Source: Sclerodactyla briareus
Taxonomy: Eukaryota > Echinodermata > Holothuroidea > Dendrochirotida > Sclerodactylidae
DNA length: 64,000 nucleotides
Assembly: GCA_026419785.1 (NCBI GenBank)
Contig: JAODTK010002543.1
Span: 190,314 to 254,313 of the forward strand
Reading direction: 5' to 3'
In this document: piece by piece, positions 10,330-59,550 of the stretch
Position numbering within the stretch: position 1 is the stretch's first letter
Layout of the letters: each line of letters opens with the position of its first letter
Notes under the pieces: generated by a model
The model's database searches: none
What the model was told of the DNA's origin: nothing
Seen by the model: the letters and a program-made list of their open reading frames with translations, nothing else
Position numbers and translations under genes: made by a program

Positions 10330-13300
10330 TGATTCCTGAAAATAAATCAGACTGTTCTTGAACGCTTCACACTCTCAGAGAGAACAACATAGTCCGTAAG
10401 ACTTCCCACTCATTGACACTCTCTGCGAGAAGAAAGATTTACGAATTTCAATCTGCAGCGCTTGCCACGAAGCTTGAGACAGTGTCCTCTATTGCAGTAA
10501 CATTGGAAAATTCAAAAGTGTGGGAAGGACAGCCATCGCGCCATGGACAAGTTTGAAAACCGGATAGTCACCACTACCCCCGATTCGCTCAGCTCCATGG
10601 TAGTTTATACGAGACGCCTTTATCTTTCCTCGTTAGATAAATTTTTCAGCCAGTCAATCATCTTGTTTGCCCTACGCTTCACGTTTTCAATAACCTGCTG
10701 GTCTTTTGCAGTGGGATTCCACACTTGTAAGAATTTCATGTGCGGTCCTCACCAGTTGCTTAAATCAACCTGAAACATATCATTTCAAGGAAACTGAGTG
10801 ACGTCTTCAGCAGCCAAGAATCCAATTACCTACTCTTCTCAGCAGCATCGGCACACTGCTTGGAAGGTTTCAAAGAGGAAATCACAACCAACCTCAAGAT
10901 CTTTTTCTGAAATCACCCTCCTGAATATTTTGGCCCTTTACTTGAAGGAGTTGCGATTGTGAAACCCACATGCTAACTTTGCACGTGTCGACATTGAAAA
11001 ACATTTGCCAGTCGGAAGACCATTTGGAAATTATATCAAGATCCCTTTGAAAAATTCAGCATCACATGCGAAACCGTCTCACGAGACAACTTGGGATAGT
11101 CTGCGAAATTCTTAACCTGGAATGACAGAACCTTCAAGATCGACAATATACGCCAAAAAGAGTAACGGCCCGAGAAACGCCAACCCTGGGGGAATCACCA
11201 CTAGTGACCTTTTGCCTAGAAGACGACCGCCGTTATTATCTATGAGCCACGCACGAATCCACTTAAGGACCTTCCTCAATGCCAAAGCTCTCCAACTTGA
11301 GGAAGAGATGCCTCATGAGGAACTCTGTCAAAAGCTCCATTCTGAAGTCCAGGAAAATTATATGAACAGGCGCATTGCCATTGTCACAGAACCATGTAAC
11401 ATCTTCCATAAATCCAAGAGATAGTTAAAACACAACGTTTGCCTAAAACCCATGCTGAGAATCATTAATCAGACTATGCTCATTGGAATAATCAACCATA
11501 TGATCCCGAATGATTGATTCATTACCTGCAGACAACCAATGTAGACTGACTGGCCTGTATTACAGGAGAGACCGTTGACCTTTTTGAAAATAGAAAAACA
11601 TTTGATCTCCTCCAATCCTCGGAACAATACTTTCTTGCAGAGTCTATTGAAAATAAGAGCTAAATGGGACAGAGCAACTCGTCGGGCAAAAGATTTTAGT
11701 AAGGAAGGATAAACTCCGTCAGACCAGGATCTTTACATCTTGAGCTTTGCAGTTCTCCTTACAAACCAGGCGAGCACACCATATTACCAATACTATGCGG
11801 GGAAACCCGACAACTAGGTCACCAAAAGTATCCAAGTTCTCATGAGCAAAAAAAGACTGAGAAATAATTATTAGAACCTAGCCATTTCCTGGTATCGCTG
11901 ATTGTACTACCGCCGTGAACTATAAGGACCAATGAGGTCCTTGACTTTTGCGTCCCCCTCATTACGAGAAAAATGCCGAGGATTATCCTTAGATATGAGA
12001 AGCATCTGCCTCTCAAAATCAAGTTAGCCCCAGAAACTAAACGCTTGGAACAAGCTTTTGCCGGAACTTTGAAATGCTCCAGATCAGACACGGACCAGAA
12101 GAACGATTTAAAGTCGCCATAATGTTGCTTAAGTTGATGGCCAGGAAAATTCCTATTCATCCAAGAAGGACTCTTGTTCTTACTGCGACGTTTTCCTCCA
12201 AGGAACGTAAACTTTCATAACATCCAGTAACCTTTTCAATGAAACCATTCCAAGAGTCAAAAGCATCGTCTTTCTAACAATTTACGCCACTTTATTCGCC
12301 AAAAAACCTAGAAAGGCCCACTCGACATCGGCCTTCGGAACAAGGAACAAGCCTCTACACTCTGTGGGATATAGAGAACAAGACACATTGAAAGTTAAAA
12401 TTTCGTGATCACTTGCACCGGCTACCCAATGCATTATTCTACGAATCTGGTCACTGCCAAAAACTAAATCCAAAATATTATGCTTCTGGTAGGAAAATGT
12501 ACATGCTGGGAAAGGAAACGAGTCCGGCGTGACATAGAAAAACCAGATCCATGACTGCCACTAGTCCCATCAGACCAAGAAATATCTTCTTAATTGGGAT
12601 TCAACCCTTACTGATTGGTACTCTTCTTAGAAACTTCGAAAAGCATTCGAAAGAGAGAGAGTGCAGTTGTTTGTCTTCAGAGCTTATCGAATAGGGGGGG
12701 GGGGCGGGCAGGTGAGTTAGACAGATTTCACAGCCAAACAGAGTGTTTACAAACCACACACCAATATCGGCCTTCGCAAAACTATTCGAGTCAGACCTCA
12801 CATACAACGAAAACTCCACCACCATGCCACGGAGAGTAATCGGTCCCTACCTTGCCCTATACACATAACCAGGAATGTGATCGTTTTTTAATATCATGTT
12901 CAACCACGACTACTGATACCAATGACGTCATGCTTGCGTTCCTGGACTAAAATCTCTCAACTCATCAAACTTGTTTCTGATACTTTGTACATTGCACAGG
13001 AAAAAGACAGCTGGCTAACAATCTATCGCTAACTGTTGATCTGCCAGACCTCCCACTGCGCTGCTTACTATTTACAACCCAGCCAGTAAGCTACGGACAC
13101 CAGAACCTCGGCCCTCAAATTTAGTTTAACAACCCCTTCCACGCAGACATTATCAACTTGCCTAACACTGGAGCCCCCATTAAGGTGAAGACGCATCCGT
13201 AGCCAAGAGATCCCTCCTTCCCCAAACACGAACACCCCCAGAACCAACGCCCTACCCAGCACACTCTAAATTTCACCACCTATTGAGACCCCCTATCGTC

Positions 13301-14560
13301 CTACCTGCACACACCGTCAAACCTAGGGAGAATTGCCGCAAATCGCGAGCTTTCGACCTAGTGGACTCAGCCTGCACAGCATTTCACGGAATCGGGATCT
13401 TAGGACGTCCTGCCTTTCACCACCGGAGATTATTAGTGCCTATCTCGAGAACCGCCACTCCTCATCTCCCACGATCTATTAACCCTCTCACTATTCCTCC
13501 ACCCTTTGCTCCCTGAAGACAAACACGCGTATGCTTCAGCTTATTTATGCGACTAAATTGCCTGTCAACATACCGACACTCGATTCCCCACAGCAAACCT
13601 CTCCCTTTTCCCTTATCCCTCCCCCACAGTCCACCTTCCCTTCCACACCTCGACGGAACACCCACCGGCTCTGACTGTCGCTTCTTCCCTGTACTCTACA
13701 CCCGCCCCCACGCCACTCCACTTCCCCCCGCACTGCCTCCTCACCTGCCAGCACACTAAACCTATTCCTAGTGTCAAGCCATGACCAACTACTACTTCCG
13801 TTGTATCGGCAGCTGCGCCCCTCCTAACCTCTTCTCCCACTGACTCTTTCACTGCACCAAAAAAAGGGTGCCTCGCTTCACGCTCAGCTCGTCTATGACA
13901 CTTCTTACTCTATACATAGACCCAATTTTCCGCCTTAGTGTCCTCAAAGCTCACCCCTCTTAAAACTCAGCCCCCGACTTCAACAACCAAATCCATCGAC
14001 ATATCGCAACTCTGACAGGCTATCACCTATCCTTCCCTCCAGATCAGTCAACATAAATAGAACAAATAGTACGGGAGGAGAATAGTAGGGGCCGATACCA
14101 GTGACATTACTAATGCCAAAGAAAAAAATAGGAAAGAAAAGCACTTACAAACACTACCAATCGCGAACACAATACGGCTGGCGGACTACAAAAGAAGGCT
14201 TACCGCGTTAACCACATCCACCAACGCTACAAACAAAACACTTAAACAGTCACCACACAAACACAAGGACATACAAATTGACCTGAACCTCATACATCAA
14301 AATGGGTTCCTAGAAGTGGGACTCAACACCAAACGGAAAAGCTTAGGGCAGATGCTACAACGTAGAAGAGAACGATTAGGCTGCAACTTCCACCACGTAC
14401 AAATAGGATCAGAAAACACGCACAATAAAGAGATCCGTAGGAAAATCGACGGCACTTGATAAATCTCACGGAACAGAAATACTAAACACAGATACACAGA
14501 ACAAATAACGAATGACTCACAAAAAAGCAGAAAATCAGTAAGAAACCAGAGCGCTTGCAA
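10330..14560 (-). mobile_element. CR1-like non-LTR retrotransposon
   Basis: Read on the minus strand from high to low coordinates, the parts come in the expected order but in shifting frames. Endonuclease start, NVQSIRNKFDELRD (about 12.95-13.0 kb). Endonuclease middle, LYVRSDSNSFAKADIG (about 12.8 kb). Endonuclease end, LDLVFGSDQI then SDHEILTFNV (12.40-12.47 kb). Reverse-transcriptase pieces YRPVSLT, DSQHGFRQ, FLDF, KVPHE and LGPLLFLAYIVDL (about 11.57 down to 11.12 kb). C-terminal pieces VWNPTAKD, ENVKRRANKMIDWLKNLS (about 10.65 kb), then RGHCLKLR and FFSQRV (about 10.42 kb). These match the CR1/Jockey ORF2 layout. A weak frame with LSVKR (13.6-13.9 kb) may be ORF1. The element is not intact in any frame; the 5' limit is approximate. 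Confidence 0.8.
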
Positions 14561-15955
14561 ATGTACTTGTCGGTGGTGTTTCCAGTTCGAAACCCCTCTG
14601 CAGATTCGTTGCTTTTTCTAGTGCGTAGGTTTGTGAACAGGTCGGCCACTCAGCTGGTCGGAGGCTGTCCTCTTAGCTATCACCCTATAGATGTACGAAG
14701 GTATATACTACCGGTACGTATCCCCCATTCAGCCCCTCACATCCAGCACACGCGTCGGCCTAGATGCCCCAGTAATGGCCACACCCAGAAAACCAAATCG
14801 TCTCTGTGGACCTTGGCCTAAAATGATGCTGCCATCGTGTTAATGATAATATACGTCAGGTACCACCCGATTGGACTTCCTCGAGGCGAGGCCACTTAAC
14901 AGGACATCCTCGGCGATGCCTGATAACTGTCTCCAAAATATCCTCGGCGAAAATTTGATTTGACTAGGTCTTCTCTGAAACGGCGTGCTATGTGTTAATG
15001 GTAATTGATATTAGTAACATCATGCGTGCTTCAACGTTTGACCAGAAGTGACTGTCCTAATCCCTGCAGTCGCAAAAAATCAAGAACAAAGGAATCGAAG
15101 GGCTAGGCTGGGCGGTATTGATATTGACATAACACGGACTAAAACCATCCTGGCACCCCAATAGAATACATGGGATTAGTGTATCCCACCCTGATAATAT
15201 GGAATCTAGGTTAGGCCCAACTTGCAAAGGTGATTATTCATACTCCTGACATTACATCATGGGAACAACCCCCAAATTTCCAATCAACTTCATCTGGACA
15301 GGTATGCTGGAATTTATTACAAGCAGGTCAAATTACCCAAACTATGAATTACTAGGAATTTTAGAAAGTTATCTCTTTTTTCTTCTTCAGAAACATGACC
15401 TCCGATTTTGATAAATAAATATGGCTCATGAAACTCATCATGGGGATACCCACAAGTTTCAACTTCATCTGTCTGACTTAACCACGAATACAAGGTTAGG
15501 TGTTACACCCACACACCTCACCTAACACACACCCACGTCATGCGGACTGTATAGATTCCTTGGTACTCCTAGGGTCGCAAGAATTAAAGCAGTATTCATG
15601 AAGGATTCCGTCTTAGTCTCAATGACTCAGGAAGCAGGGATGATAACAAAATGCGCTGTAGCCTCAAGACTAGTTTCCTTGTCCAATATGCGATGAACTG
15701 CATGAACTCTGTATTCGAGTACAGATCCTGGGTTGCGTAGACAGTTCCATAATCCATTGTTCTCCTATTACTGGCCTCACCCCTCTGCTAGCATTAACAT
15801 TTATGTTTACCTTCTTTGAAGGAGTGCTTTTGATGACTTCGGAATGAAGAATGATATGTCCGCTTGCCCTTCCCTGAGGACTTCCCCTTCGTTGTTTGCC
15901 TGAGATGGAGAGCTTGGCAGTCGGCTCAGCAGGATATTCCTTCGGCCTCCTCTTT
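12178..15955. repeat. Direct duplication 1, copy A
   Basis: This block repeats at 15956-19725. From 14725 to 15955 it is identical to 18495-19725 as far as I can read (1,231 bp). From 12.18 to 14.72 kb it matches 15.96-18.49 kb with frequent single-base gains and losses. The copies abut: copy A ends at CCTCCTCTTT and runs straight into the start of copy B, whereas copy B continues into unique exon sequence. Confidence 0.9.
15811..15955 (-). pseudogene. Truncated extra copy of a lysine-rich exon
   Basis: This is identical to 19581-19725, the donor-side part of the exon at 19581-19978. It keeps the AAGAAG|GTAAAC donor but loses the upstream part of the exon at the duplication junction. If the duplication is real it is a broken exon copy; if an assembly error it does not exist in the genome. 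Confidence 0.7.
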
Positions 15956-18350
15956 CTACTTACTACCTTAACTCTTACTTACGGCACTTTTTCCTCCAGG
16001 AACGTAACTTTTCATAACCTCGTTAACCTTTTCCCTGAAACCATTCCAGAGTCAACAGCATCGTACTTTCTAACAATTTACGCCACTTTATTTCGCCAAA
16101 AACCTAGAAGGGCCTCGACATTGCCTTCGCGAAACAAGGAACCAGCTTACACTGTGGGTATAGACGGAACGAAGACACCCTGGAACTACAATCGTGATCA
16201 CTTTCAACCGTCTTACCCAATGCATTATCTACAGAATCTGATCACTGCTCAAAACTAAATCCAAATAGTTCTTTCTGGTATGGAAAAATGTAACATGGCT
16301 GGGAAGGAAACAGTCCTGCGTGACATTGAAAAAGCCAGAATCCATGAGCGCCACTAGTACCTCAGACCAAGAATACTGGATAATTGGATTCACACCATTA
16401 GAATTGTTCTTCTTAAGAAAACTTTCGAAAAGCTGTCGGAAAGAAGAGAATTTCAGTTTGTTTGTCTTCAGAGCATTCGGAATACCAGATGAGTTAGACA
16501 GAATTTCACCCAACAGAGTTTGACAACACTCACGAACCAATTCGTCCTTCTCAAACTATCCGAGTCAGACCTCACATACACCAAACTCCACCACCCCATC
16601 CACGGAGAGTATCTCCTACCTTCCTGAAACAACATAACAAAGGTTAAATCGGTTGTGGAAAAATCACTGTTCAACCACACGACTCTTTAATACTCATACG
16701 TCATGCTTGCTTTCCTGGACTAAATCTGCAACTCATCAGATCTTGTTCCCTGATACGTTGGAACATACCGGAAAAAGACAGCTGGCTACATATCTATCGC
16801 AACTGTTGACCTCGCCAGAACTCCCACTGCGATGCTTACTATTAATAACCCTGCCATTAAGCTACGGACCCAGAAACCCCCGCCCTCAATTTATTTTAAC
16901 ACCCCTTCCACGCAGACATTTATCAACTTGCCTAGCACTGGAGTGCCCCCATTAAGTGAAAGGACCATTCTTAGCGAAGAGATCCCTCCTCCCAGAACAC
17001 GAAACATCCACAACCAACGCCCTCCTCAGCGCACTCTATTCTATCCACCTGTTGCGACCCGTCTATCTCTACCTGCAACACACCGTCAAACCGAGGGCAA
17101 ATGCCGTCAAATCGCGACTTTCGACCTAGTGGACTTCACCCTGCACAGCAGTTCACAATCGTGATCTTAAGGACGCCGCCTGTCACCCGTGATTATTAGT
17201 GCCTATCTCGAAACCAGCCACCTCTCATCTCCCACGATTCTATTAACCCCTCACTAATATCCTCCACCATTGCGCCCGCGGAAGACAAACACGCTTACGC
17301 TTCAGCTTTTTTATATGCGACTAAATTGCACTGTCACATCCCGTACAATCGCATCCCCACATCAAACACGTCCCTTTGACTTATCCCTCCCCCCCATCAC
17401 CTTCCCTTCCATCCGCCCCTCGACTAAACCACCGGCTCTGACTTTCGCTTCTCTCTGTACTCACAGCCCCCAGCCCCCACTCCATCCACTGACCCCCCTG
17501 CACTCCTCCTCACTGCCAGCACCCTAAAAACATTCCTAGTGTCAAAGGCCAGGCAACCACTACTTCGTTCTATCGGCAGCAGAGCGCCCCTCGCTATCCC
17601 TTCTTCCCACGGACCTCCGTGCCCCAAGCCTCGCTTCACGCTCAGGGCTAGTCTATACCACTTCTTACATCTATAATTACCCCCTCCCCTTAGTGTCCTC
17701 AAAGCTTCCCCCCCCCTCTTAAAACTCAGCCCCGACTTCAAACTCAATCCACATATCGCCACTCTGACAGGCTTCAGCCATCCTTCCCTACCATATCAGC
17801 AAATAAATAGAAGACAAATAGTACAGGGAATGAGAAAGAATTAGTGCCTACCAGTGAAATTACTAATGGCAAAGAAAAAAAAAAGTAACGGGAAGCACTC
17901 ACAACACTACCAATCGCAAAACACCATATGGCCTGGCGGAACACCAAAGAAGGCTTACCGAGTTAACACACAGTCCACGCGACAAACAGAACAGATTAAC
18001 ACAAGCACCACACAAAACCAAAGGACCAAATCCTGACTGAACCTCGTACAGCAAAATGGGTCTATGAGGGGGAACTCAAACCAAACGGAAAAAACAGCTA
18101 GGGCCGGATGCTACAAACGTAGAGATACATATGCTGCCACTTTCCACACACGATTACACATAGATCAACAAACCGCACAATAAAGAGACCGTAGGAAATT
18201 CTAAGCACTTGAAAAATCTCAATCTCCGGAAAGAAAAGATGCAAACACAAAGATCAACACAAGAAAAATATAACGAATGAATCACCAAATGCAGAAAATT
18301 CAGTAATAAAACAGAGAGCGATTGCAAATGTGAACTTGTCGGTGGTGTTG
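15956..18350 (-). mobile_element. 5' half of the CR1-like LINE, repeated
   Basis: Minus-strand endonuclease pieces recur: LVYVRSDSDSLRRTN (about 16.57 kb), DSGFFNVTQDCF, SHVTFFHTRKNYLDLVLSS (16.24-16.35 kb). The reverse-transcriptase part is absent because the block joins sequence corresponding to about 12.18 kb. Comparison with the other copy lets some indels be located. Confidence 0.75.
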
Positions 18351-19725
18351 CCAGTTGCTCGAAACCCCACCCCTCTGCAGATTCCGTGCTTTTCTAGTGC
18401 TGTGTTGTGAACAAGGTCAGGCACTCAGCTTGTCGGAGGCTTCCTCTTTAGCTCTCACCTCAGATGTACAAGGTAAGTACCCGGGACGTATCCACCATTC
18501 AGCCCCTCACATCCAGCACACGCGTCGGCCTAGATGCCCCAGTAATGGCCACACCCAGAAAACCAAATCGTCTCTGTGGACCTTGGCCTAAAATGATGCT
18601 GCCATCGTGTTAATGATAATATACGTCAGGTACCACCCGATTGGACTTCCTCGAGGCGAGGCCACTTAACAGGACATCCTCGGCGATGCCTGATAACTGT
18701 CTCCAAAATATCCTCGGCGAAAATTTGATTTGACTAGGTCTTCTCTGAAACGGCGTGCTATGTGTTAATGGTAATTGATATTAGTAACATCATGCGTGCT
18801 TCAACGTTTGACCAGAAGTGACTGTCCTAATCCCTGCAGTCGCAAAAAATCAAGAACAAAGGAATCGAAGGGCTAGGCTGGGCGGTATTGATATTGACAT
18901 AACACGGACTAAAACCATCCTGGCACCCCAATAGAATACATGGGATTAGTGTATCCCACCCTGATAATATGGAATCTAGGTTAGGCCCAACTTGCAAAGG
19001 TGATTATTCATACTCCTGACATTACATCATGGGAACAACCCCCAAATTTCCAATCAACTTCATCTGGACAGGTATGCTGGAATTTATTACAAGCAGGTCA
19101 AATTACCCAAACTATGAATTACTAGGAATTTTAGAAAGTTATCTCTTTTTTCTTCTTCAGAAACATGACCTCCGATTTTGATAAATAAATATGGCTCATG
19201 AAACTCATCATGGGGATACCCACAAGTTTCAACTTCATCTGTCTGACTTAACCACGAATACAAGGTTAGGTGTTACACCCACACACCTCACCTAACACAC
19301 ACCCACGTCATGCGGACTGTATAGATTCCTTGGTACTCCTAGGGTCGCAAGAATTAAAGCAGTATTCATGAAGGATTCCGTCTTAGTCTCAATGACTCAG
19401 GAAGCAGGGATGATAACAAAATGCGCTGTAGCCTCAAGACTAGTTTCCTTGTCCAATATGCGATGAACTGCATGAACTCTGTATTCGAGTACAGATCCTG
19501 GGTTGCGTAGACAGTTCCATAATCCATTGTTCTCCTATTACTGGCCTCACCCCTCTGCTAGCATTAACATTTATGTTTACCTTCTTTGAAGGAGTGCTTT
19601 TGATGACTTCGGAATGAAGAATGATATGTCCGCTTGCCCTTCCCTGAGGACTTCCCCTTCGTTGTTTGCCTGAGATGGAGAGCTTGGCAGTCGGCTCAGC
19701 AGGATATTCCTTCGGCCTCCTCTTT
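15956..19725. repeat. Direct duplication 1, copy B
   Basis: Second copy of the 12178-15955 block, offset 3,770 bp in the identical half and about 3,798 bp at the start of the noisy half. The offset drift shows the noisy half differs mainly by indels. It carries a truncated 5' part of the CR1-like LINE and the 3' part of an exon. Confidence 0.9.
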
Positions 19726-22540: not shown

Positions 22541-23720
22541 CCCTTATAGGATGAGATTACTCACACTAATTTTCAAGGATTTAAGACTTGGCCTCTGGTG
22601 ACCCCAAAACACTAGGGTTTCATTCTCATCATGACCTCTGACCATACCAAAACAATCGGGTTCCTGTACTTCCCCCATAGAAAGCTACACACAACATTAG
22701 AACCTGATCAGACAAACCATCTGGACTTATCGTGTTTCACAAGGTTTCAGACTTTGACCTCTGGTGACCTCAGATGACCTATGACCTGACCACCCCAAAC
22801 AATAGGGTTCAATGTACTAACATGGGGCCACACATACAAGTATGAGCTTTCATCCACCCGGTGGGTCAAGATGTCGTTTCACAACCCAATGGCCAAAATA
22901 TTGACTTTTCAACAAATTTTCCTATGTTTTCACAAAAATTCACCCCGCACCTATACCAGAAACGATAGGTTCCTGTACGTACTCTTCCCCATAAGAAAGC
23001 TGCACACCAATTTTACCCTGATCAGACCGACCATCTGGACTTATCGTGTCACAAGGTTTTCATCAGACTTCGACCTCTGGGTGACCTCATATACTCTCTG
23101 ACCTGACCCCAAAACATGAGGTTCATGTACCATCATGGGAACACACATTACCAAGTATGAGCTTCATCCTCCAGGTGGGGTCAAGTTATCGTGTTCCACA
23201 GCCGAAATGGCCAAAATATTGACTTTTCCAATTTTCTATTTTCCATGCACGAAAATTCACTGGTATTTATACCAGAACAATAGGGTTCCTGTACTCTCCA
23301 TAGAGCTACACACCATTTGAAACCTGATCAGACCAACCATTCTGACTTATCGTGTTCACACGTTTTTTCATTCAACTCGACCATCTGGTGACCTCTGACC
23401 TGACCACCCCAAAACAATAGGGTTTCATGTAGTCATCAGTGGGGAACACACATACCAAGTATGAGCTTCATCTATCCAGGTGGGGTCACGTTATCGTTTT
23501 CACAAGCCCGAATGGGCCCCAAATAATTGCACTTTTCACAATTTGTTTCTATTTTTCAACAAAAATTCACCCCAACCTAATCCAAAATCAATAGGGTTCC
23601 TTTCTCCCCTCACTGAAAGCTACACACCAATTTGAACCTGATCAGACCACCATTTTCTGGACTTATCGTGTTCACAAGTTTTCAGACCTTGACCTCTGTG
23701 ACCTCAGATGTCGAGTTTCT
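22540..23720. repeat. 310-bp tandem repeat array, 4 copies
   Basis: The marker GGACTTATCGTG occurs near 22723, 23036, 23344 and 23659, a spacing of 308-315 bp. Each unit carries, in order, GACCTCTGGTGACCTC, CCCCAAAACAATAGGGTTC, CATACCAAGTATGAGCTTCATC, AGGTGGGGTCAAGTTATCGTG, CAAAATATTGACTTTTC, and GAACCTGATCAGACCAACCAT. Degenerate relatives continue at 24.6-25.2 kb, and an inverted copy lies at 50.8-51.25 kb. Confidence 0.85.
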
Positions 23721-24509: not shown

Positions 24510-25061
24510 CTGAGAGCTTGCTGCGAACCTGACCTCGATCCACCATTGTCCTCCTATTGGTGTGATTGACAACATGAACATTCAGAGTACACACTCACCT
24601 GACCTCACTTTATAACATTAAAGTGGGGGGGGGTGGTACCATCTTTCCACGATGGCCATCAACACTAATTGACCCAAGCAAATTTGCTACTAAGCCTAAA
24701 CTATCGTTTTTCAAAATTCCTATTTTTGACAATATTATAATGACCCTGATCTTCACTAAACAATCCATGGGTTGTTCTAGTATCCTCATATTGGAAAATG
24801 CATCGATTTCCCACCTTGATCGCACCAATCATTTTGGACTTATCGTGTTGACAGGTTTTTGGACTCTTACTCGAGACTCTAAATACTTTTGACCACTACA
24901 GAAGGCTTCATCTGACCTGGTGGGGTCAGTTATAGTTCACAAGCAAGAATTTACCAAAATATCACAATTTTTCACATTCTCACAATTTTTCTTACAGAAA
25001 ATGACCCCACCACAGTTACAACTAAAATCGATAGCCATCTTGTACTGACCATACGGAAGCT

Positions 25062-28000
25062 GTATGCCAAATTTAGGTTTGAGCGAACAAGCATTCGGAC
25101 CATGTTCGCAGTTCCCACTTTCACCTCATGATAATTACACTTGACCTTCCTTCCACAAGAGGTTTCCATACGCATTGTGATTTACCCACCTTAACCCAAC
25201 AAAATGTCCCCAATCCACACACCACACCAAGCACAACAAGGTTTTCGTGTTATCCATCCCTTGAGACAGCATATCGTGTGATAGTAGTCTTTGGTAAAAC
25301 GTTGATAATTGCCGTTTCCTCTTCTTTCATCCGGCAACGCACAGCCATCATCAGGGTCGAAAAAGACTAAGCCCGTTAGCCCCGGGGTACTTGAGGTACT
25401 GCATTTGGGCTAGTAAATAATTTGTTGGAGATGCACTTCGGGCTAGTGGTTAACTCAATGAAATTGTTGGTTGCCAGTAAATGCAATCGGCTAGTCAGAA
25501 TCTTGTTCGGGCTACTGACAGCCATTTTCTCAGAGCCCGATGGCTAGTTTGAGGTCAGACATTTTTTGAGCCCTGCCATCATTACATTCTGCAGTGGGCG
25601 CCAACCATTTCTGTATCTGTCTTCTCTTGTATCACAACGTCCTGTCCAGTCGTAATTTTTGCTCCCATTAAAAAATTTGGGAATGCCCAACTACACCCCT
25701 TATAGAAAACCCCCGATTTTTGGTTTTTCGAAGGAAAAATGAATGGTTAGACCCTAACAAAAACGTGTTACATGAGCGACATGAGGATCTTATACGGTTC
25801 AGCAGTTTGACAATTTGAACATGGCTGAAAATGATATCTTTAAAATCTTTGCAATTTGAACAAAACTGATACATAGAGTAAAAGACCAATGGTCAAGAAA
25901 TGTCAAGCCGGATAAAAGGCAGCAGGGAACATTAGGATATCTTTAACCAAAGACAAGTGTTATAGGACTATTTAAAGCAATTCAGATCACTCATCATGTT
26001 TCTCAGATATGTATCTTTGTTGACCTTAGAGGATCCGAAAGTTGATCTGAGTTCAATACAACATGGATCATGTGCTCTCATCAGAAGACTCCCCGAACCA
26101 ATTATGAGCCTCATCCCATTGCAAGCCTCAAAATGGGTCAGTTCACATGTTCACAAGCCAGCATCACTAACCACACCGCATCACACTGATATGACTGCCA
26201 AGTTGCCTCGACTGATTTCAAGGGTTTTTGTTTTAGACAGTTCGTGATGGTATATCACGCAGCAGAATACCACATGAATTTTTTAGGAAGTGCAACTCAT
26301 GAATGCAAATCTGCAATGTACAGTATTCGCAGTACTGGAAGCTAGTATCAGAAACTGGAACAGGAAAATTCTACACAGGTATTTCGTCCACATGCTACTC
26401 ACCCCCTCCAACTTCGAGTATACGTATAGAGAAGGGGGAGGCAGGCCCTACAGTAATCTGGTGTACCTGTAAAGGATTAGCCCCTAAAATAGCTAGCATC
26501 ACAATTCAAAATGCTCCTCAGATTAGCAGGTTCTACCCACTTTTCATGTTCACAGCAGTCAGTTTGTACACAAACTATATGACAGCATACAGTTTTCTAC
26601 AATTCCCCATTGGCATTCCTTTGCAACCCCAGTGTCCAGCACTACTGTACTGCAAAGCTGCTATATCCAGTGCACTCCAAACCTTTTTGTTTCGGGTGTT
26701 TGTTTTCATCCCCTTCAATCGCCTAAAGTGAATCTACCAGGATGTTCACTTTTTATTCCGGTTTGAATGACTTGTCATTGGCTGCAGCATTCGACCAAGA
26801 CCATTGGAAGAGGTGGGGAAAATATCACACACCAGGTGACATACAGGTAAAGTACAGAACATGCGAGTAATCACCTGATTAAAACAATGTTATTGACAGT
26901 GCCTCTATTACCCAGGCCATCTCAACTGGCGTCGGCCCCTTTAAACAAGTGTCGGCGCATGGCAATAATTTGTATATACACTAAACTTTAAGAAATTTTT
27001 TAAATAAAAATTCGTGGATTATAGTGCAATATTCCAGAAATGTGCTTACTGCCTTAAGGCGTGGGAATGCCGTTTCCTGCAACTTACAGGTCTGCCCAGA
27101 CAAATTTTCTGCCAAATACATGTGGCGCTCCCTAGAACTTAGATAGTACATCGTATTGGCACTCCACGAAAACATTTGAGAAGGCCCTTCTCTAACCTAT
27201 GTGTACTGTGCCTATAATACTATTGTTTAACAAGAGCAAACAATGGTGCTCTGTAGCTCAAACTGCACAAATGAACCAAGACACATTCAAAACTTATGTG
27301 TCATGTTTGAAATCAATCATGAATGTCAAGAAGGCAGTTTTCAAACAATTGCCTATTGTGCTCCCCGGTAACAAACCTTTTGCCTGATCTCATAAGGCCA
27401 CACAGCTGTCTTAGAAGTCAATTAACATTGCTACTTAGTTCAGTCACCACCATCCATCCGAAGATAACCAAATTGAGAGGAATAAAAGGCGTGGTGATCT
27501 GTCCGCCAGTGTCTACCTCGCCCGCTTGTGCAAGTCGTGTTTTCTAACCATGAAATAAAGCAATTGACAGCTAATTATACATGTCCGATTTGAAGTTGTA
27601 GTTTTTTAACAACTCTGAGTGAAAATTCCCACCCATTGGAAGCATTGTAAAATTTGTTAAACTGGACCACCTAATTAGCATTTTATGCTGAATCTCGTCA
27701 GTTCATGAACCTGCCCTCTTATTCATGCCAAAGTCAAACCAACAACCATTATATCGTCTGGTCATGGCGTATCTTGCTAACAAGAGCTTAAACAATAAAA
27801 TCTATGGCATAGGCAAATTGGGGGGGGGGGGTGCCTAAATTCTGATTCGCTCAACTACACCTAACTTTTGTTGCCATTAAGGTTGATCATCATATCTATA
27901 GCTGGAACCTACGAAAACATGCCATTATTGCATTGTGGCTGCGTTCCTGGTCTGTCTAAATTGCGCTGTGCAGTGGACATGTCAGTATCTGTCGGGAATG

Positions 28001-28962
28001 GTTTCACACACTTCAGTTTTGGCAAGTCTGCTGTAACAGTCACAGGAGCATGAACTCTTTTGCTTCTTCCAGGTTCTGAGAATTGGTCGTATCCTGGATT
28101 CCCTGATTGTCTGTTGGATGGAACGTAACATGGTGGTCCTGGAACAGGTTACAACCCCCTGCCCTTGATATCCATTTGACCACTTGTTGAGAAGAGTAGG
28201 TGAGTTTTTCCAAGATCAAAATAACCAGGCTTCCTAGATGGGCTTAAATGGCTTCCTGACTGTTGTTGAAAAGCTGTACTCAGCAAGTAAGATCAGAAGA
28301 AGCCTCTGGGCAGAGAATTGAATTTTGGGTGAAATTGTGTTACACACTAATGGCTACTCAACCAGTAGTCTTTTTTTCGTGTATGGTCTGAGATCATACT
28401 GTGATATATCAAGTACAATCACTAGTTACATGAGACTTATCTGCCTGTTTAGCTTTCAAATTTAGTCATTGTATTCCTGTGTTATGTTTCAAGCTATTAT
28501 TTTCCTCCCCATAACCATTAGATGTGGATGTTGTGTACAATAGCCCAGATTGGATATTACATGGTGGAGGCTGCACATTGCAATGTGCAGCCGTAATGGC
28601 AAGAGTGACGGGAGCCTAGAAGCCCGGGGGGGGGGGTCTGAAGTCCATAAGCCTCGGCTTTTGGGCAATGGCTATGAGCCCCAAAAGTTGACCTCTTTTC
28701 AAAGCTAGATCTGAGTGGTAGAAACACTTATTAGTGTTGCAATTGTACTCATATATATAGCTTTTTCTACAAACCATGGGTTCTGTGGCTTACTGTGCAC
28801 AGAATTGATTATAATGACGGCTACTTGCACAGTTGCCTATCCCAGCCTCATAATGGAGAAGGGGACTGTTTTTATTGTACTTGATCCAACCTTATCAAAG
28901 GGAGGGTAACTTGTGTCATATTCATACAAGCATTAAACACAATACTTCTGCAAGGGAGGAAG
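25062..28962. repeat. Direct duplication 2, copy A
   Basis: It runs from GTATGCCAAATTTAGG to the ACTTCTGCA segment and repeats at 28963-32868. Shared stretches include GGCCATCTCAACTGGCG, TTTTAACAACTCTGAGTG and CTGGAACCTACGAAAACATG-like sequence. The copies differ at many places, largely by single-base gains and losses plus poly-G or poly-C length changes. It contains TTCGGGCTAGT-type short repeats (about 25.37-25.56 kb) and a member of the 185-bp family (about 27.0-27.17 kb). No exon was supported. Confidence 0.85.
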
Positions 28963-31900
28963 GTGTATGCCAAATTTAGGTTTGAGCGAACAAGCATTCT
29001 GGACCTGTTCTCAAGTGGTCCAGACTTTCACCTCCAATTGATAATTACATTACCTGACCTGTCTTCCCCCCCCCCCAAACAAGAGGGTCCATACTCATTG
29101 TGGTTACCCCCCACTACCCCAAAAAATGTCCCCCCCAATCCACACCAAGAACAACAGGTTTCTTGTTATCTCCTTTATCCCTTGAGAAACAATTATCAGT
29201 GATAGTAAGTCTTGTGTTTAAAACGTTGATTATATTCCATTATTCCTGCTGGCTTTCATCCGGCACCACAGCCATCATCAGGCTCGAAAATCATAAGCCC
29301 GGTAGCCCGGTAGCCCGGGCTACTTGACTGCATTTGGGCTAGTAAAAAATTTTGTTGGAGATCACTTCGGGCTAGGTGGTTACTCAATGAAATTGTGTTC
29401 CGTAAATCATCGGCTAGTCAGAATCTTGTTCGGGCTACTTACAAAGCATTTCTAGAGCCCATGGGCTAGTGAGTCAGGTACATTTTTTTGAGCCCTGCCA
29501 TCATTACATTTCTGCAGTGCGCCACCATTCCCCATTTCTGTATCTGTCGTCGTATCAACGTCCTGTCCAAGTCGTATTTTGCTTTCCCGATGATTGGAAG
29601 CGCCCAACTACAACCACTGATAGAAAACCCCCGCTTATTTTGGTTTTTTCGATGAATTTAGACCATAACAACGTGTTACAATGAGCGACATTGAGGATCT
29701 ATACAGTTCAGCAGTTTGACAATTAACATGGTGAAAGATATCTTTAAAAAATCTTTGGCGAATTTTTTGAAAACGACGTTGATACAGAAAGTAAAAGACC
29801 AAGGGTGCAGAAATGTAAAGCCGGATAAAAGGCAACAGGAAAAATTAGGAATATCTTACCACAAGACAAGTGGATGGACTATTTAAAGCATTCACAGTCA
29901 GCAATCCCCCCCATTTTCTCAATATTTTATCTTTGTTGACCTTAGAGACCTAAGTTATCTGATGTCAAACAACATTGATCCTGTGCTCTCATGAAGAATC
30001 CACGAACCGAAGTATGAGCCTCATCCATCAAGCATCAAAATGGGTCGAGGTTCACATGTTCCCAAGCCATTCATCACATACACAACACGACCCTGATATG
30101 ACTGCACATGTTGCTCGCTGATGTCAAGGGATTAATTTTTTTTATAGACAGTTCTTGAGGTATATAATACCGCAGGTCACTGAATACCACATGAATTTTT
30201 TAGGAAAGTGCACTGCATGAATGCCAATAGCAAATGTAAAGTATCTCATTACTGGAACTGATATCAGGAAAACTGGAAACAGGATTTACACAGTATGTCC
30301 CCACATGCTACTCTCACCCCACCTCCACATTAGAGTATAGAGAAAGGGGGGGCAGGGCCCTACAGGTTCTGTGTACCTGGTAAAGATTAGCACCTAAAAT
30401 AGGCTAGCATCACAATTCAAAATGCTCCTCAGATTAGCAGGATTGCTCACACTTTTCAATTTCATAGCGTCAGTTTGTACACACAACTCATATACGCACT
30501 CAGGTTTTCTACCATTCTCCTTGCATTCCTTGCAACCCAGTGTCAGCACACTGCAATATCTGCTCAGTACCTTGTGCACTCCAAACCTTTTTGTTTCGGT
30601 GTGTTTATTTTCATCCCCTTCAAATCCGCCTAAAGTGAATCTACAGGAAGTTCACTGTTTAGCAGGTTGAAATGACTTGTCCTTGCGGCAGCATTAACAT
30701 CCGAAGACCAGGGAAGAGTGGGGGAAAATACACACACCAGGTGACATAACAGGTGGTAGTACGACTGCGAGTTAACATCACCTGATGAAACAATGTTATT
30801 GACAGTGCCTCTATTACCCAGGCCATCTCAACTGGCGGCGGCCCCTATTAAAAAACAAGTGCGCGCATGGCAACTAATTTGTATCCACCATAACTTTTCG
30901 GAAATTTTTTTGAATTAAATTCTGATTATAAGTCAATTCCAGAATTTTGCTTTACTCTGCCTTGAGGCGTGGGAATTGCCGTTTTCCTGCACTTACGAGG
31001 GCTGCCAGACACAAAATTCTAGCCAATACATGGTGGCGCTCCAGCTTAGAATCCTTATATAGTAGCATCGTAGTTGCAACTGCCACGAACACAGTTGATA
31101 AGGCCTGGCTCTAAACCTATGGTTACTGTGCATAAAATAATCTATTGTTACAAGAGCACCAATGGGGATGGAGCTCAAACTGCACAATTGAACCAAGACA
31201 AATTCAAATTATGTGTCAAATGTTTGAAATCACCATGAAAGTCAAGAAGGGCGTTTCAAACAATTGCCTATTGTGCCCCTGTACAACCTTTGACCTTGTA
31301 TCTTCATAAGGCCCAGCTGCTTAGAAGTCAATAAACATTGCTCTTAGTTTCTGTCAACATCATCGAAGAATAACCAATTGCGAGAGGAATAAGGCGTGGT
31401 GATCTGTCCGCAAGTGTCACGCACCGTTGTGCAATCAGTGGTTTCTACCCATGAGAATGAAGCATTGACTAGCTAAGTATACATGTCGAGTTGAAGGTTG
31501 TTAGTTTTTAACAACTCTGAGTGAAAATTCCCACCCATTGGAACTGCCATTGTAAAATTTGTTAAACTGCTCCACCTAATTAGCATATTTTTATTGCTGA
31601 AATCTAGTCATTTTCATGAACCTGCATCTTGACTTTATGCCAAAGTCACACCACATCATTATACCTCGTATTGTCCATGGGTAATCATTGCTAAGATCGT
31701 AACAATAAAATCTTGGAATAGGCAATTGGTGCCCTAAATTCTGATTGATCACCTACACCTAACTTTTGTTGCCATAATGTTGATTTAACTCAGCTTCCAC
31801 TTGGGAACACATACTAAAACTGCCCATTATTTCATTGTGGCTGCGTACCTGGTTCTGCAAATTTGCGCATGTGCAGTGGAAATGTAAGTATCTGTCGGGG

Positions 31901-32868
31901 AATGTTTCACAATTTTTTTAGTTTTGGCAGTCGGCTGTAAACAGTCACATGGCGCATGAATCTTTTGCTCTCAGGTTCTGAGAAGGGTCCGATCCTGGAA
32001 GATTCACTGATTGTCTTTGGATGGACACGTAACATGGTGGTCCTGGGAACAGGTTACACCCCTGCCTTGATATCAATTGACCACTACTTCTTGAAAGAGT
32101 AGGTGAGTTTTCCATATCAAAATAACCAGGATCCTAGATGAGGCTTAAAGGCTTCCTGAATGTTGTTGAAAAGCTGTAATCAGCAAATACGATCAGAAGA
32201 AGCCTACCTGGGCAGAGAAATTGAATTATGATTGAAATTGTGTTACACACTGATGCCTATTTAACCAGTAGTCTTTTTGTGTATGGTACTGAGATCATAC
32301 TGATAATCTCAAGGACAAATTAGCTAGTTACATGAGAAGTTCTGCAGGTTTAGCTTCAAATTTAGCATTGTAGTTCTGTTTTATTGTTCCAGCTATTATT
32401 TCCTCCCCATAACCATTAGATGTGGCTTTTTATGTACAATAGCCCAGAGGTTGAATATTACATTGTGAGGCTGCCATTGGCAATGGGTGCAGCAGTAATG
32501 CAGAGGTGAACCGTGGGGGGAGCCTAGAAGCCCTGAAGGCCATAGCCAATCGGCTTTTGGGCAATGGCCTCTGAGGCCCAAAAGTTGACTTCTTTTCAAA
32601 GCTAGCATCTGATGTAGAAAACAACTAGTTATGTTGCAATTGTACTCAATATATATAGCATTTTTCTACAAAGCATGGGTCCGTGGCTACTGTGCACAGA
32701 TTGTAATGATAATGAAGGCTACTGCACAGTTGCCTATCCCACGCCTCAGAAAAAGGGGAGAAGGGGAATTGTTGTTTCTATTGTACTTGATCCACTTATC
32801 AGAAGGGAGGGTAACTTGTCGCATATTCATACAAGCATTAAAACCCAATACTTCTGCATGTGTAGGAG
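28963..32868. repeat. Direct duplication 2, copy B
   Basis: Second copy of the 25062-28962 block, abutting it head to tail. The sequence after it (GTGGGTTTGCAAG...) has no match at the end of copy A, placing the junction near 32868. The relation of the two copies (same order, same orientation, indel-type differences) matches duplication 1. Confidence 0.85.
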
Positions 32869-33589
32869 GTGGGTTTGCAAGATTTTTCGGGGAAATGTCC
32901 ACTCTTATCCATATTGAGCATGTTCTACAGTATATGAATCCTAAATGTATAGCGGGCCTTACACTTGCTAGGGAAGCCGTGGGGATTGTTGCGTTTGCTG
33001 ACTTGCAATTGCATACTGTATATTTTTCCAATTCAAACACAACATCATTCTATTTAATACTCCTATAGCTGTATTACAATTGCACTTAATTCCATTTTTT
33101 TTTTTGATTTTCAATCCTATTAATTTTTTCAAGAGGGGTGATAGGCAATGATTTCTCATGTAACTACTCTATTCTCTGATGTTCCTACGTCCTACCCACA
33201 AAACCATTTTTCGTAGGGTTATTTTTTGTATTATAGCAGAGCCTAAGAGACTACTCTAAATTGACTTTCTCTAAATTCGAACATTCTGAAGGCCTACCCC
33301 AACTTGCCTGTCATGCTTGGCTCCACAACAACATTGCAGTTACTGCTGCATCTGAATAAACCTTTGATTCTGTCTTATGGTGGAGGGTGGAAGGTGATTC
33401 GCAAGTTTTTTGTTTGTTTGTTTTGTTCTCTTATAGATTTGCATTTTAATTCAGATATTTACTTTATATCGCATAATTCATTCTAAATTCATCATATTTA
33501 AGTGTCACAAATTGGCACATTTTAGGGTGGGGGGTCGCTCTTCCATGGATTTGCCTTTTCTCAATTATTGACTTATTGACTATTTGATT
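32869..33589. other. Putative intronic stretch
   Basis: AT-rich sequence, with no exon or repeat recognised. Confidence 0.4.
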
Positions 33590-50730: not shown

Positions 50731-50799
50731 GCAGGTTAGATTGTTAAAACACGACAATGGACCCAACTGGATAGATGGAGCTTATATTTGGCGATTATA

Positions 50800-51250
50800 G
50801 GTGCCCCAGTAAATTAGGACATGTTCCTTCTTGTTTTGGGGTCAGGTCACAAGGTCATATGAGGTCGTGTTTAGGTCGAAGTATGAAAACGTTGACGATT
50901 AGTCCAGAATTGCTGGTCTAATACCGCTGAAGTTTGGTATGCAACTTTTTCACGAGGAGTACATGGGCCCGATTATTTTTTAGTTCGTTCAGGACCGGCG
51001 CCCAATTTGGTTTTAAAACAAAAGGGGGAAGGGGAAATGTGACAAAATAGTTTTTGGCTATTTAGCTTGTTAAACAGGTGTACTCGGGACCCCACTTGGA
51101 TGGATGAAGCTCACTTTGGTATATATGTTCCCACATAAGGAGTACATGATCATATTGTGTTCAGGGGGTTCAGGTCAAAGGTATCTGAAGTCAAGAGAGG
51201 TCAAAGTTTTTAAAAATCTTGTTAACACGAGGGGCTAGAAGTGGGTTGCA
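50800..51250 (-). repeat. Inverted copy of the 310-bp repeat family
   Basis: Read on the minus strand it carries CTGACCCCAAAACAAGAAGG, CATACTTCGACC and CATACCAAACTTCAGC-like blocks, in the same order as the 22.5-23.7 kb array. It is a strongly diverged copy in opposite orientation. Confidence 0.65.
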
Positions 51251-54105: not shown

Positions 54106-57100
54106 TTAGCCGGAGTTGATCGCGGGAGATATATTCTCCTTCGACTCGGGTATCGAGTACATTAGCTTAGACCAGAAGAAGACATCTCGCCGGTGCAGGT
54201 AAGTGTTCGTGGAAAATGTAGGCCTTGATCTCCTTATCTAGAGACTCCTCATCCACGTCATCCATCATCACCAACACGATGCGTCGAGCCCTGTCTCTCA
54301 GCGCCTGCTGGTGGGACGTCTTGAACTCGTAGGAGCACCAATCACTCTCGAGGTAGTTCTGCGAACACAGAATCAGAATCTTCCTGCTCTTCTCGATCGC
54401 ATTGATGTGTTGTCGCGTTACATTCACCGACGATGAAGTCCCGGTGGTGGATGCAAAGCTTCCTCCTGCCCTCCTGGGATTCCAGCTTTGTATCAGCTCT
54501 TCCAGAACGAAATCGCGATCGAAACTGCTGAAGGAGATGAACGCATCGTACTCCTTGTCATTGTCATCCGGAGACCGCGAAGAGAATGGCTTGAGGCCGG
54601 TCTTGATGTAGATGAAGACCAGGATCTCTAGACGATAATCGTAAATCAACCAGCACATCACTGCGGTGAAAAGACGGCGACAACTGAGGATCCCACGTAA
54701 AGATACCACTGCTGAGCCGAGACTGTTACTATCTGCGTAACTTCACTGTGACTATCGATGGAGTCGGTGCTGGAGAACATTCCTGTTCTTTTTCCTCCAC
54801 CCACTGAGCCATCCGTTTCATTAGAAAACCCAGTATCGTTACACGGTAGCGAGGGAGGTCCGTAGTTATTGATCGGCCGTCTGTAGAAAATACCATTTGA
54901 ACCAGCTTGAAAGGTAAGGTTCACAAGAGCACGTTGAATGGGTTGCCAACCAGAAAGAGGGAGGAAATATTATCAGATCTCAAGACCCCATCTGGAGGAA
55001 GAAAGGTGGTGTTAGGAGGAGATTCCTTGAACGACGACACTCGTTAAAAGTGTCGTTCGTTATCGACGGAAATCGATATTCGAGAGATCGAGAGAGGAGA
55101 AATGCGGAGAGGACACGTTAAGTATAGCCAGAGCTTACTTCGTATATAGCATTGTCGTTAAGGTATAGATCGTAGAGATCACGAAGAGGCAGGAACGACC
55201 ACTCTCGAATGTAGGAGATTTTGTTATCTCAGGTCGAGAACTTGGAGGTTCGGGATGTGGTGAGATTACCGTGTCAGGTTCTATGAGTTACCTGATAAAC
55301 AACGGGCAGTTACAGATGATGTCAGCTCAATCGGACGCGGCAAGGACTGGGAAATTCTCGCAGAGAACTACCACAAATTCGTTGAACATTGCTGATAGCA
55401 AAAACATGGCGATTGACAGTCGGGTTCCGAGTGAACATCGTATAGAAATCGAAGTACCTGAAAACTAGCCTAACGTCAACATAATGCCATCCTACCGGGC
55501 TGTACCCGATCGTGTGTATCGGTCGAAACGTTTGATAGAAAGGTGAAGTTACGGGCCATATATACTCAGAATAATATGGAGTGTCCATTCCCCGGTTTCT
55601 GGAGGCTCGCTCGAATAAATCACTGAAACATCCACAGTGCACATTAACGGATTCTCAAAAGTCTGGAATGGCTTCTCGGGAAGACCCTCGAGATTCTATA
55701 CCCAGTTAACGTAGTACGGGAGATGGAAATACCAAAGTTCGTGGTACCGCAAGTCTAAGATAGTAAGAGTAGCAATGTGACTGGAATGCCATTATGTCAA
55801 AGGAGTAGATACGGTTCCCAGCGAGATCAATATTTCGATGGAGGGAAGGTTGAAAACTACGTCTTGTCCGATGAAACTGCAAATATTTTTTGCGAGATCA
55901 CCCGTTTCAATTTTTGCCAGTACAAAGGTGTAGCGACACACTAAGGGCAATAAATATCGCTGAGACGACCATTTCTAGCCTTAACGAACAGGGGGTTTGA
56001 GGTCGAAATAGGCAAAAATAATCTGGTATCTCGCTTAGTTTATTGCGCCTTAGAACGAGTCCTTCAAGAGTGGTGATATTCTGGAAGTGTGAGCTGGTCA
56101 CGTCATCCAGGAAACATCTAATGTACAGTGTTCCAGATGGGGCATGCGTAACGAGATATTGTATTCGTTCAGGCCTAGGGGGAGTTGCCGTGAAGGTCAA
56201 GGACTCAGGTGGTGAGGCCTCTGAAGGCCCCTCTGTGGATGTAGCGAAGATAGTTGGGATAGGTCCAAGATTGCAGCTAGGAGAGGGACGATAAGGCGTG
56301 CTCCCCTAGCGCTTCTGTCGCTGTACGAACCAGTGCTAATGGTTCAGACTGGGCATTAATCGGAACAGGTACGTGGGAATTTCATCAACATCCTGTTAGT
56401 TCCGTATATCTAAGACTCGAGAGCTGTGAGAGGGAGTCACGACTGGAAACCGGCGTTCTGCATTTTTTTTTTTTTTTTTTTTATAAGTTATGCGAAGAAA
56501 ACATTTGTCCAAACGTTTCAATTACGGACTGCGTTGGCAGGAACACCTGAATGAATGAATTTTTTCAAGAGCAGAAACTCTCGGCGTAGGGGGAAAGCGT
56601 TGTCTCGTTGATAGGCAAATCAGAGCTCTCGGGTAATCCGAAGACTATAGGCGAGTAGTACTAGAATAAATTCAATTAGTACCTAGGCGCTTCGAAGAAA
56701 GAAAAACATCGTCGTCCATTCGAAGCAGGACCGTACTGCCAACTCAGTTTCTCCAAATGCAGGAAGGATACAAGGTATTGTTTGGCAGAACTCTACCAAG
56801 TCGCATGCGTACAACTCAACGACGTAACCGTCGCTGTACCCGCGAGAGCAGCCATACACGTGAAAAGTGACTAGGGTGCTGCATAGCTCTCGTCGCAAGT
56901 CACTAACAGATTCGATGGACCAGGCGGTGTGGGAACATGTCGGGATACTCATCGAGTGTGTGCGAAAACACAGGGACCCTCCGTCAGGTTCGTAAGGGAT
57001 CACGTTAGTCCATTACGGCAATGCCACTCGAATAGACACGCAGTATGGTTAAGTTCGCATGGGAAGAATCCAAGCAGATTACAGGAGAAACCGTTACGAA

Positions 57101-58462: not shown

Positions 58463-58684
<222 letters not shown>

Positions 58685-59550
58685 CTTTAAATTTTTTTGT
58701 GAGGAAGGCTCGAATGCAAAAAAAAGGAAAAAGAAAATCGCACTGTGCGCGCCGTATCCTATCTTTCCCGTTACATGTATAAAACAGTGGGCACACGTGT
58801 ACAGTAACTTTTTTCACATTCTGACAAATATATTTTTGTCCATAGTGTCATCTTCAAGTGTGGTGAACATTTAGGTAGGCCAGAGGGCAATTGGTTTAGG
58901 ACTGATTATGTTGCACCCCCCCCCCCCCTCCTCACCTAAACAATGACGGAATCCACCTGCTATTTTCTTAAAACTGCACACAGTAGCTACTCTGATCCAT
59001 ATTGTCAGTCAGATTGGCCTTGCCAGACTGACGTGCTGTTTTTAAATAAAAGATGAAAAGCTATATGTAGCGAAAAACACAGGGCATGATCGTGCAAATT
59101 AGTGTGGATTTTTACTGATTGACGTAGGACTATACAGGCGGCGGAGCGGGCGAAACAATTCTGAGACATGAGAGAAATTTGAACGCAGAATTAGCGGAAA
59201 CTATCACCCAAAATGACAAATTGTCTTGCTGACCTGGCTCGATGCCTTTCAAATCAATCCCGAAAAATGCACACATTTACATGCATTGATGTTCAAACAA
59301 GCAAATTTTTCAATCTGCGGCGCCTCCACCCAATGGAAGGGTCCCCTCGATGGAATATCTCTAAGAATGGCTATGGTAGGAATGGAACAACGAAAATCTA
59401 AGAAATCTAAGGATTAACATCATCATTTTTCTGAAATACTGCCATTTCAGTGATTGCTACTGCCAAAGTCCGCGGGAAGTGCCGCTTCCTGCATCTGGGG
59501 GGGGGGGGTCCTGTATTACCTATTTCTTATACAGTACGCGTCAACTCGTC

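Follow-up and report, generated by a model that had tools for sequence, protein, structure and literature searches.

A Toll-like receptor gene divided among three reading frames in the Sclerodactyla briareus assembly, probably through consensus indels

The DNA analysed here, called the window, is a stretch of 64,000 nucleotides from the holothuroid Sclerodactyla briareus (NCBI GenBank assembly GCA_026419785.1, 319,486,128 bases in 3171 contigs; contig JAODTK010002543.1, positions 190,314 to 254,313), which extends to the end of its contig, C2065 in our numbering. The minus strand of the window carries TIR boxes 1, 2 and 3 in order, spread over three reading frames (Table 1). The frame class of each piece was taken as its highest coordinate modulo 3, and the classes 1, 2 and 0 found for the three boxes confirm what the initial annotation, made from the letters alone, had read at this place. 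Its description of box 2 as lying in a compensated shift and of box 3 as requiring a further one also agrees with the classes, which run 1, 2, 1, 0 along the domain. No single open frame spans the TIR coding sequence, in which three frame changes fall within 355 nt. Two of these changes lie inside the intervals where corrections had been expected, and the third, at 54213-54215, was missed by a few bases, being just beyond the interval 54170-54210. The final residues of the 180-aa ORF differ from the frame that is open in a paralog on another contig (C1553), in line with the earlier view that the annotated-looking frame ends early with a false C-terminus.

Table 1. Features of the receptor locus. 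Frame class is the highest coordinate of a piece modulo 3.
Feature	Positions	Strand	Remarks
180-aa ORF	54167..54709	-	spans most of the TIR domain; false C-terminus
TIR box 1 piece	54482..54550	-	frame class 1; Pfam TIR/TIR_2 match
TIR box 2 piece	54420..54488	-	frame class 2, compensated shift; aligns to TLR2 box 2
TIR middle part, after box 2	54215..54409	-	class 1 regained
TIR box 3 piece	54145..54213	-	frame class 0; residues of the C1553 paralog closely similar, partly in another frame
Probable transmembrane/juxtamembrane stretch	54584..54673	-	class 1; hydrophobicity judged by eye
Probable C-terminal LRR cap (cysteines)	54826..54965	-	three frame classes; by eye and from the C1553 paralog
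Leucine-rich repeats, best single-frame stretch	55136..55225	-	LRR profile 27.9 without frame changes
Leucine-rich repeats, two frame classes	55726..56128	-	3 frame changes in best path, LRR profile 34.4; Pfam LRR_8 16 bits

By sequence comparison, the locus is the intracellular end of an ordinary animal Toll-like receptor (TLR) gene with leucine-rich repeats (LRRs) upstream. The repeats lie N-terminal of the TIR domain, at about 54.9-56.1 kb, and are scattered over the frames. Scored with a hand-made cyclic LRR profile that permits frame changes, they reached 34.4, compared with at most 15.2 for six resampled sequences and at most 17.0 for 11 other stretches (17 controls in all, maximum 17.0). 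Frame changes add little to this score (34.4 vs 27.9), and the number of frames occupied by the repeats is accordingly not firm. A longer hydrophobic stretch was found in the C1553 paralog at the position that matches the probable membrane stretch of the window copy. The succession of LRRs, a probable cysteine-bearing cap, a hydrophobic stretch judged by eye and a TIR domain is the layout of a TLR. When 53.5-60 kb was scanned with Pfam in three frames, just TIR_2 and TIR scored above the cut-off; LRR_8 stayed below it (16 and 18.3 bits vs 27), and most of the other rows sit around a run of about 223 T at 58466-58688 (96% matches). Searches of the window with Rfam (gathering scores) and ARAGORN (bacterial code) gave no matches.

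Box 1 and its surroundings are recognised in the open frame: the 180-aa ORF matched Pfam TIR_2 with 43 bits and TIR with 35.6 bits, and the open frame aligned with PF01582 over profile positions 2-103 (36.8 bits, cut-off 21.3). An alignment of the corrected protein with PF01582, proposed in the initial annotation, was run on the pieces joined with X; the score rose from 36.8 to 50.1 bits and the match lengthened to profile positions 2-137. Among solved structures (PDB), the best score was 41.5 bits for the 180-aa ORF, with the TIR domains of TLR6, TLR10 and TLR1 as the closest ones, and 67.4 bits for the joined query of 157 residues, for which TLR2, TLR6 and TLR1 were the top matches; box 2 of the joined pieces falls on box 2 of TLR2 in this alignment. 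Since pieces joined by hand invite cherry-picking and inflate scores, a control by synonymous recoding was carried out. A frameshift-permitting alignment to the TIR domain of human TLR2 gained 67 points on the real DNA. In 200 sequences made by recoding the open frame with synonymous codons, drawn at random and evenly, the gain was 16.5 on average and 50 at most, and none of the 200 reached 67. The TLR2 target stops short of the FFW motif, which limits this control to box 2 and the beginning of box 3. FFW is reached by the Pfam match of the joined pieces, which extends to residue 144, and by the alignment to PDB 7ylf, which extends to residue 140. On these alignments, the residues split among frames are real TIR residues.

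It could be argued instead that the TIR fragment is shorter than it seems and that the three boxes arose around it as chance matches, in frames unrelated to one another. The motif FFW is by itself unspecific, as the three frames of the window's minus strand contain it six times. Queried singly, the pieces with box 2 and box 3 reached no Pfam family. Such a coincidence is nevertheless hardly credible: it is opposed by the failure of every recoded control to attain the observed gain, and by the paralog, which retains corresponding residues near boxes 2 and 3 in frames of its own.

This paralog was the one clear relative listed in a search of the assembly with the window protein (65% identical over 51 residues), and its DNA aligned with that of the window over 1161 columns, also at 65%. 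No intact copy of the receptor gene was present among the assembly matches listed. The paralog is broken too, at points other than those of the window copy: its frame continues unbroken as the middle part ends and box 3 begins, at the place of a shift in the window copy, and its own shift follows just past that point, where the window copy stays open. Of 56 gaps between the two, 51 have a length not divisible by three and 45 are just 1-2 nt long, although the list takes in a weakly conserved part in which gap placement is uncertain. In the longest gap-free block (54318-54411), 79 of 94 bases match, and the 15 mismatches are distributed 4/1/10 over codon positions 1/2/3. Such a preponderance of third positions indicates that coding constraint shaped the divergence of the two copies. 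A second, different TIR exon of the assembly, at locus L001 (G000:C2888:192160-195405), is stop-free through the box 2 region.

The comparison with the paralog also bears on the idea of a working gene in which programmed frameshifting or RNA editing restores the frame. The sole point in its favour is that residues are conserved on either side of each change. Shift positions were not conserved between the window copy and the one relative compared, the C1553 paralog, in which the last changes of the window copy have no counterpart at the same places, and this argues against programmed frameshifting. A recoding signal would, in addition, leave unexplained the many changes in the LRRs and in the histone genes described below; we therefore regard this mechanism as very improbable.

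Conserved genes of the same assembly served as controls. A search for the histone families, in which seven candidates were scored and the listed matches are a lower bound, gave at least four matches, all of them to H3 and all partial, with a stop in one of the four listed. Over spans of 202, 450, 421 and 427 nt, these require 1, 8, 9 and 10 changes of frame in a frameshift-permitting alignment, and are identical to H3 at 55/67, 78/133, 106/136 and 105/136 residues, respectively, the second being the weakest. In all four listed matches the frame changes sit within conserved residues. Expressed per kb, the changes amount to 5.0, 17.8, 21.4 and 23.4; the TIR coding sequence, with 8.5 per kb in the frameshift-permitting alignment, lies between the lowest value and the other three (for TIR and H3 alike, the counts rest on one penalty, 10, and one setting). 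Three of the four H3 places are on two contigs, C1362 and C2362, which are possibly poorly assembled, and the error rate may thus be overstated. To our knowledge, an animal lacking intact H3 is not viable. Since H3 is indispensable to animals, the assembly, not the organism, is likely at fault for most of the H3 breaks.

Stops were found in six of 14 HSP70 matches and in none of the other eight. In one HSP70 exon the conserved residues are divided between two frames, and a second copy is stop-free in the equivalent exon. Hence, essential invariant genes are broken in the same manner as the receptor, as seen in four of four listed histone matches (H3) and in an HSP70 exon. Six of seven tubulin matches were stop-free, the best being clean over profile positions 63-189, and the TIR exon on contig C2888 was stop-free over profile positions 1-83. 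From these clean TIR, tubulin and HSP70 exons we conclude that the assembly error is patchy, and a genuine lesion may still be present at the TIR locus.

We consider it very probable that the locus is a normal TLR gene read off an assembly with many short indels left in its consensus. While the identity of the receptor comes from comparison with known domains, the assignment of the indels to assembly error is inferred from the controls within the assembly. The animal needs H3, yet the listed H3 copies are broken, which makes assembly indels the simplest cause. The encoded protein would have an LRR ectodomain, one membrane span and an intracellular TIR domain; its role would presumably be in signalling, with the TIR domain acting through TIR-TIR contact. 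The assembly appears to be of a long-read type, with a consensus that would retain many short indels, and those falling within the TIR coding sequence would shift boxes 2 and 3 relative to the frame of box 1. The three-frame layout is thus most likely absent from the genome itself. The initial annotation had favoured consensus indels over pseudogene decay, and H3, HSP70 and the repeat copies of the window (see below) all support that preference. Its argument from the preservation of the motifs would by itself have been insufficient.

Decay, in the form of a young TLR pseudogene whose residues are still recognisable and which belongs to a decaying family together with the broken C1553 paralog, is in our judgement unlikely, even though several observations fit it. 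The two copies are broken at different places, as expected if each had decayed independently; clean exons occur elsewhere in the assembly; and TLR families do lose members. However, both the LRR and the TIR residues are well kept despite the many frame changes, 45 of the 56 gaps to the paralog measure only 1-2 nt, and H3 of the same assembly has suffered the same damage. If the breaks were real after all, the receptor and its closest paralog may have been lost together, in a recent collapse of part of the receptor family, to which we assign a small probability.

An ordinary gene affected by an artefact is the probable reading, and the locus resembles the animal receptors TLR1, TLR2, TLR6 and TLR10 in its three-box TIR domain, the LRRs upstream of it, the probable cysteine cap and the putative hydrophobic span. 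It differs from animal TLRs in the frame changes of its TIR domain, probably an effect of assembly. In the Kastor report (PMC12007338), consensus indels of long reads are described as introducing frameshifts and premature stops, by which normal genes take on the appearance of pseudogenes; the case treated there concerns small genomes, unlike the 319-Mb assembly studied here. Genes split among frames in this assembly, those of histone H3 included, should be called pseudogenes only on the evidence of reads, and TIR or LRR gene numbers derived from the assembly are likely to be underestimates.

Two pairs of abutting copies lie elsewhere in the window. With a unit-cost alignment, which favours indels, the copies at 12179-15955 and 15978-19725 differ by 163 substitutions vs 377 indel bases, and those at 25055-28957 and 28958-32885 by 206 vs 599. 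With higher gap costs, the first pair showed 668 mismatches and 64 gaps and the second 850 and 122; as mismatches now outnumber gaps, the share of indels depends on the scoring. For tandem copies at another locus (L017) of the window's contig, the best row has 79 mismatches and 14 gap openings, a ratio less indel-rich than that of the window copies under the same scoring. In PMC9516828, under-collapsed copies arising from read errors are termed 'homotype' false duplications; both abutting pairs of the window, at 12-20 kb and at 25-33 kb, are rich in indels and resemble these. The 12-20 kb pair departs from that case in that contig C1553 carries a relative of its repeat. Because of this relative, the 12-20 kb copies count as support for indel noise but not as proof that a false duplication took place, and may be real repeats.

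As to the copies themselves, those within 12179-19725 (about 3.75 kb each) are fully identical over their closing ~1.1 kb, and those within 25055-32885 (about 3.9 kb each) have an edit distance of 805 and differ from end to end. The window also contains tandem repeats of about 310 nt at 22634-23710, an inverted relative of which lies at 50741-51230.
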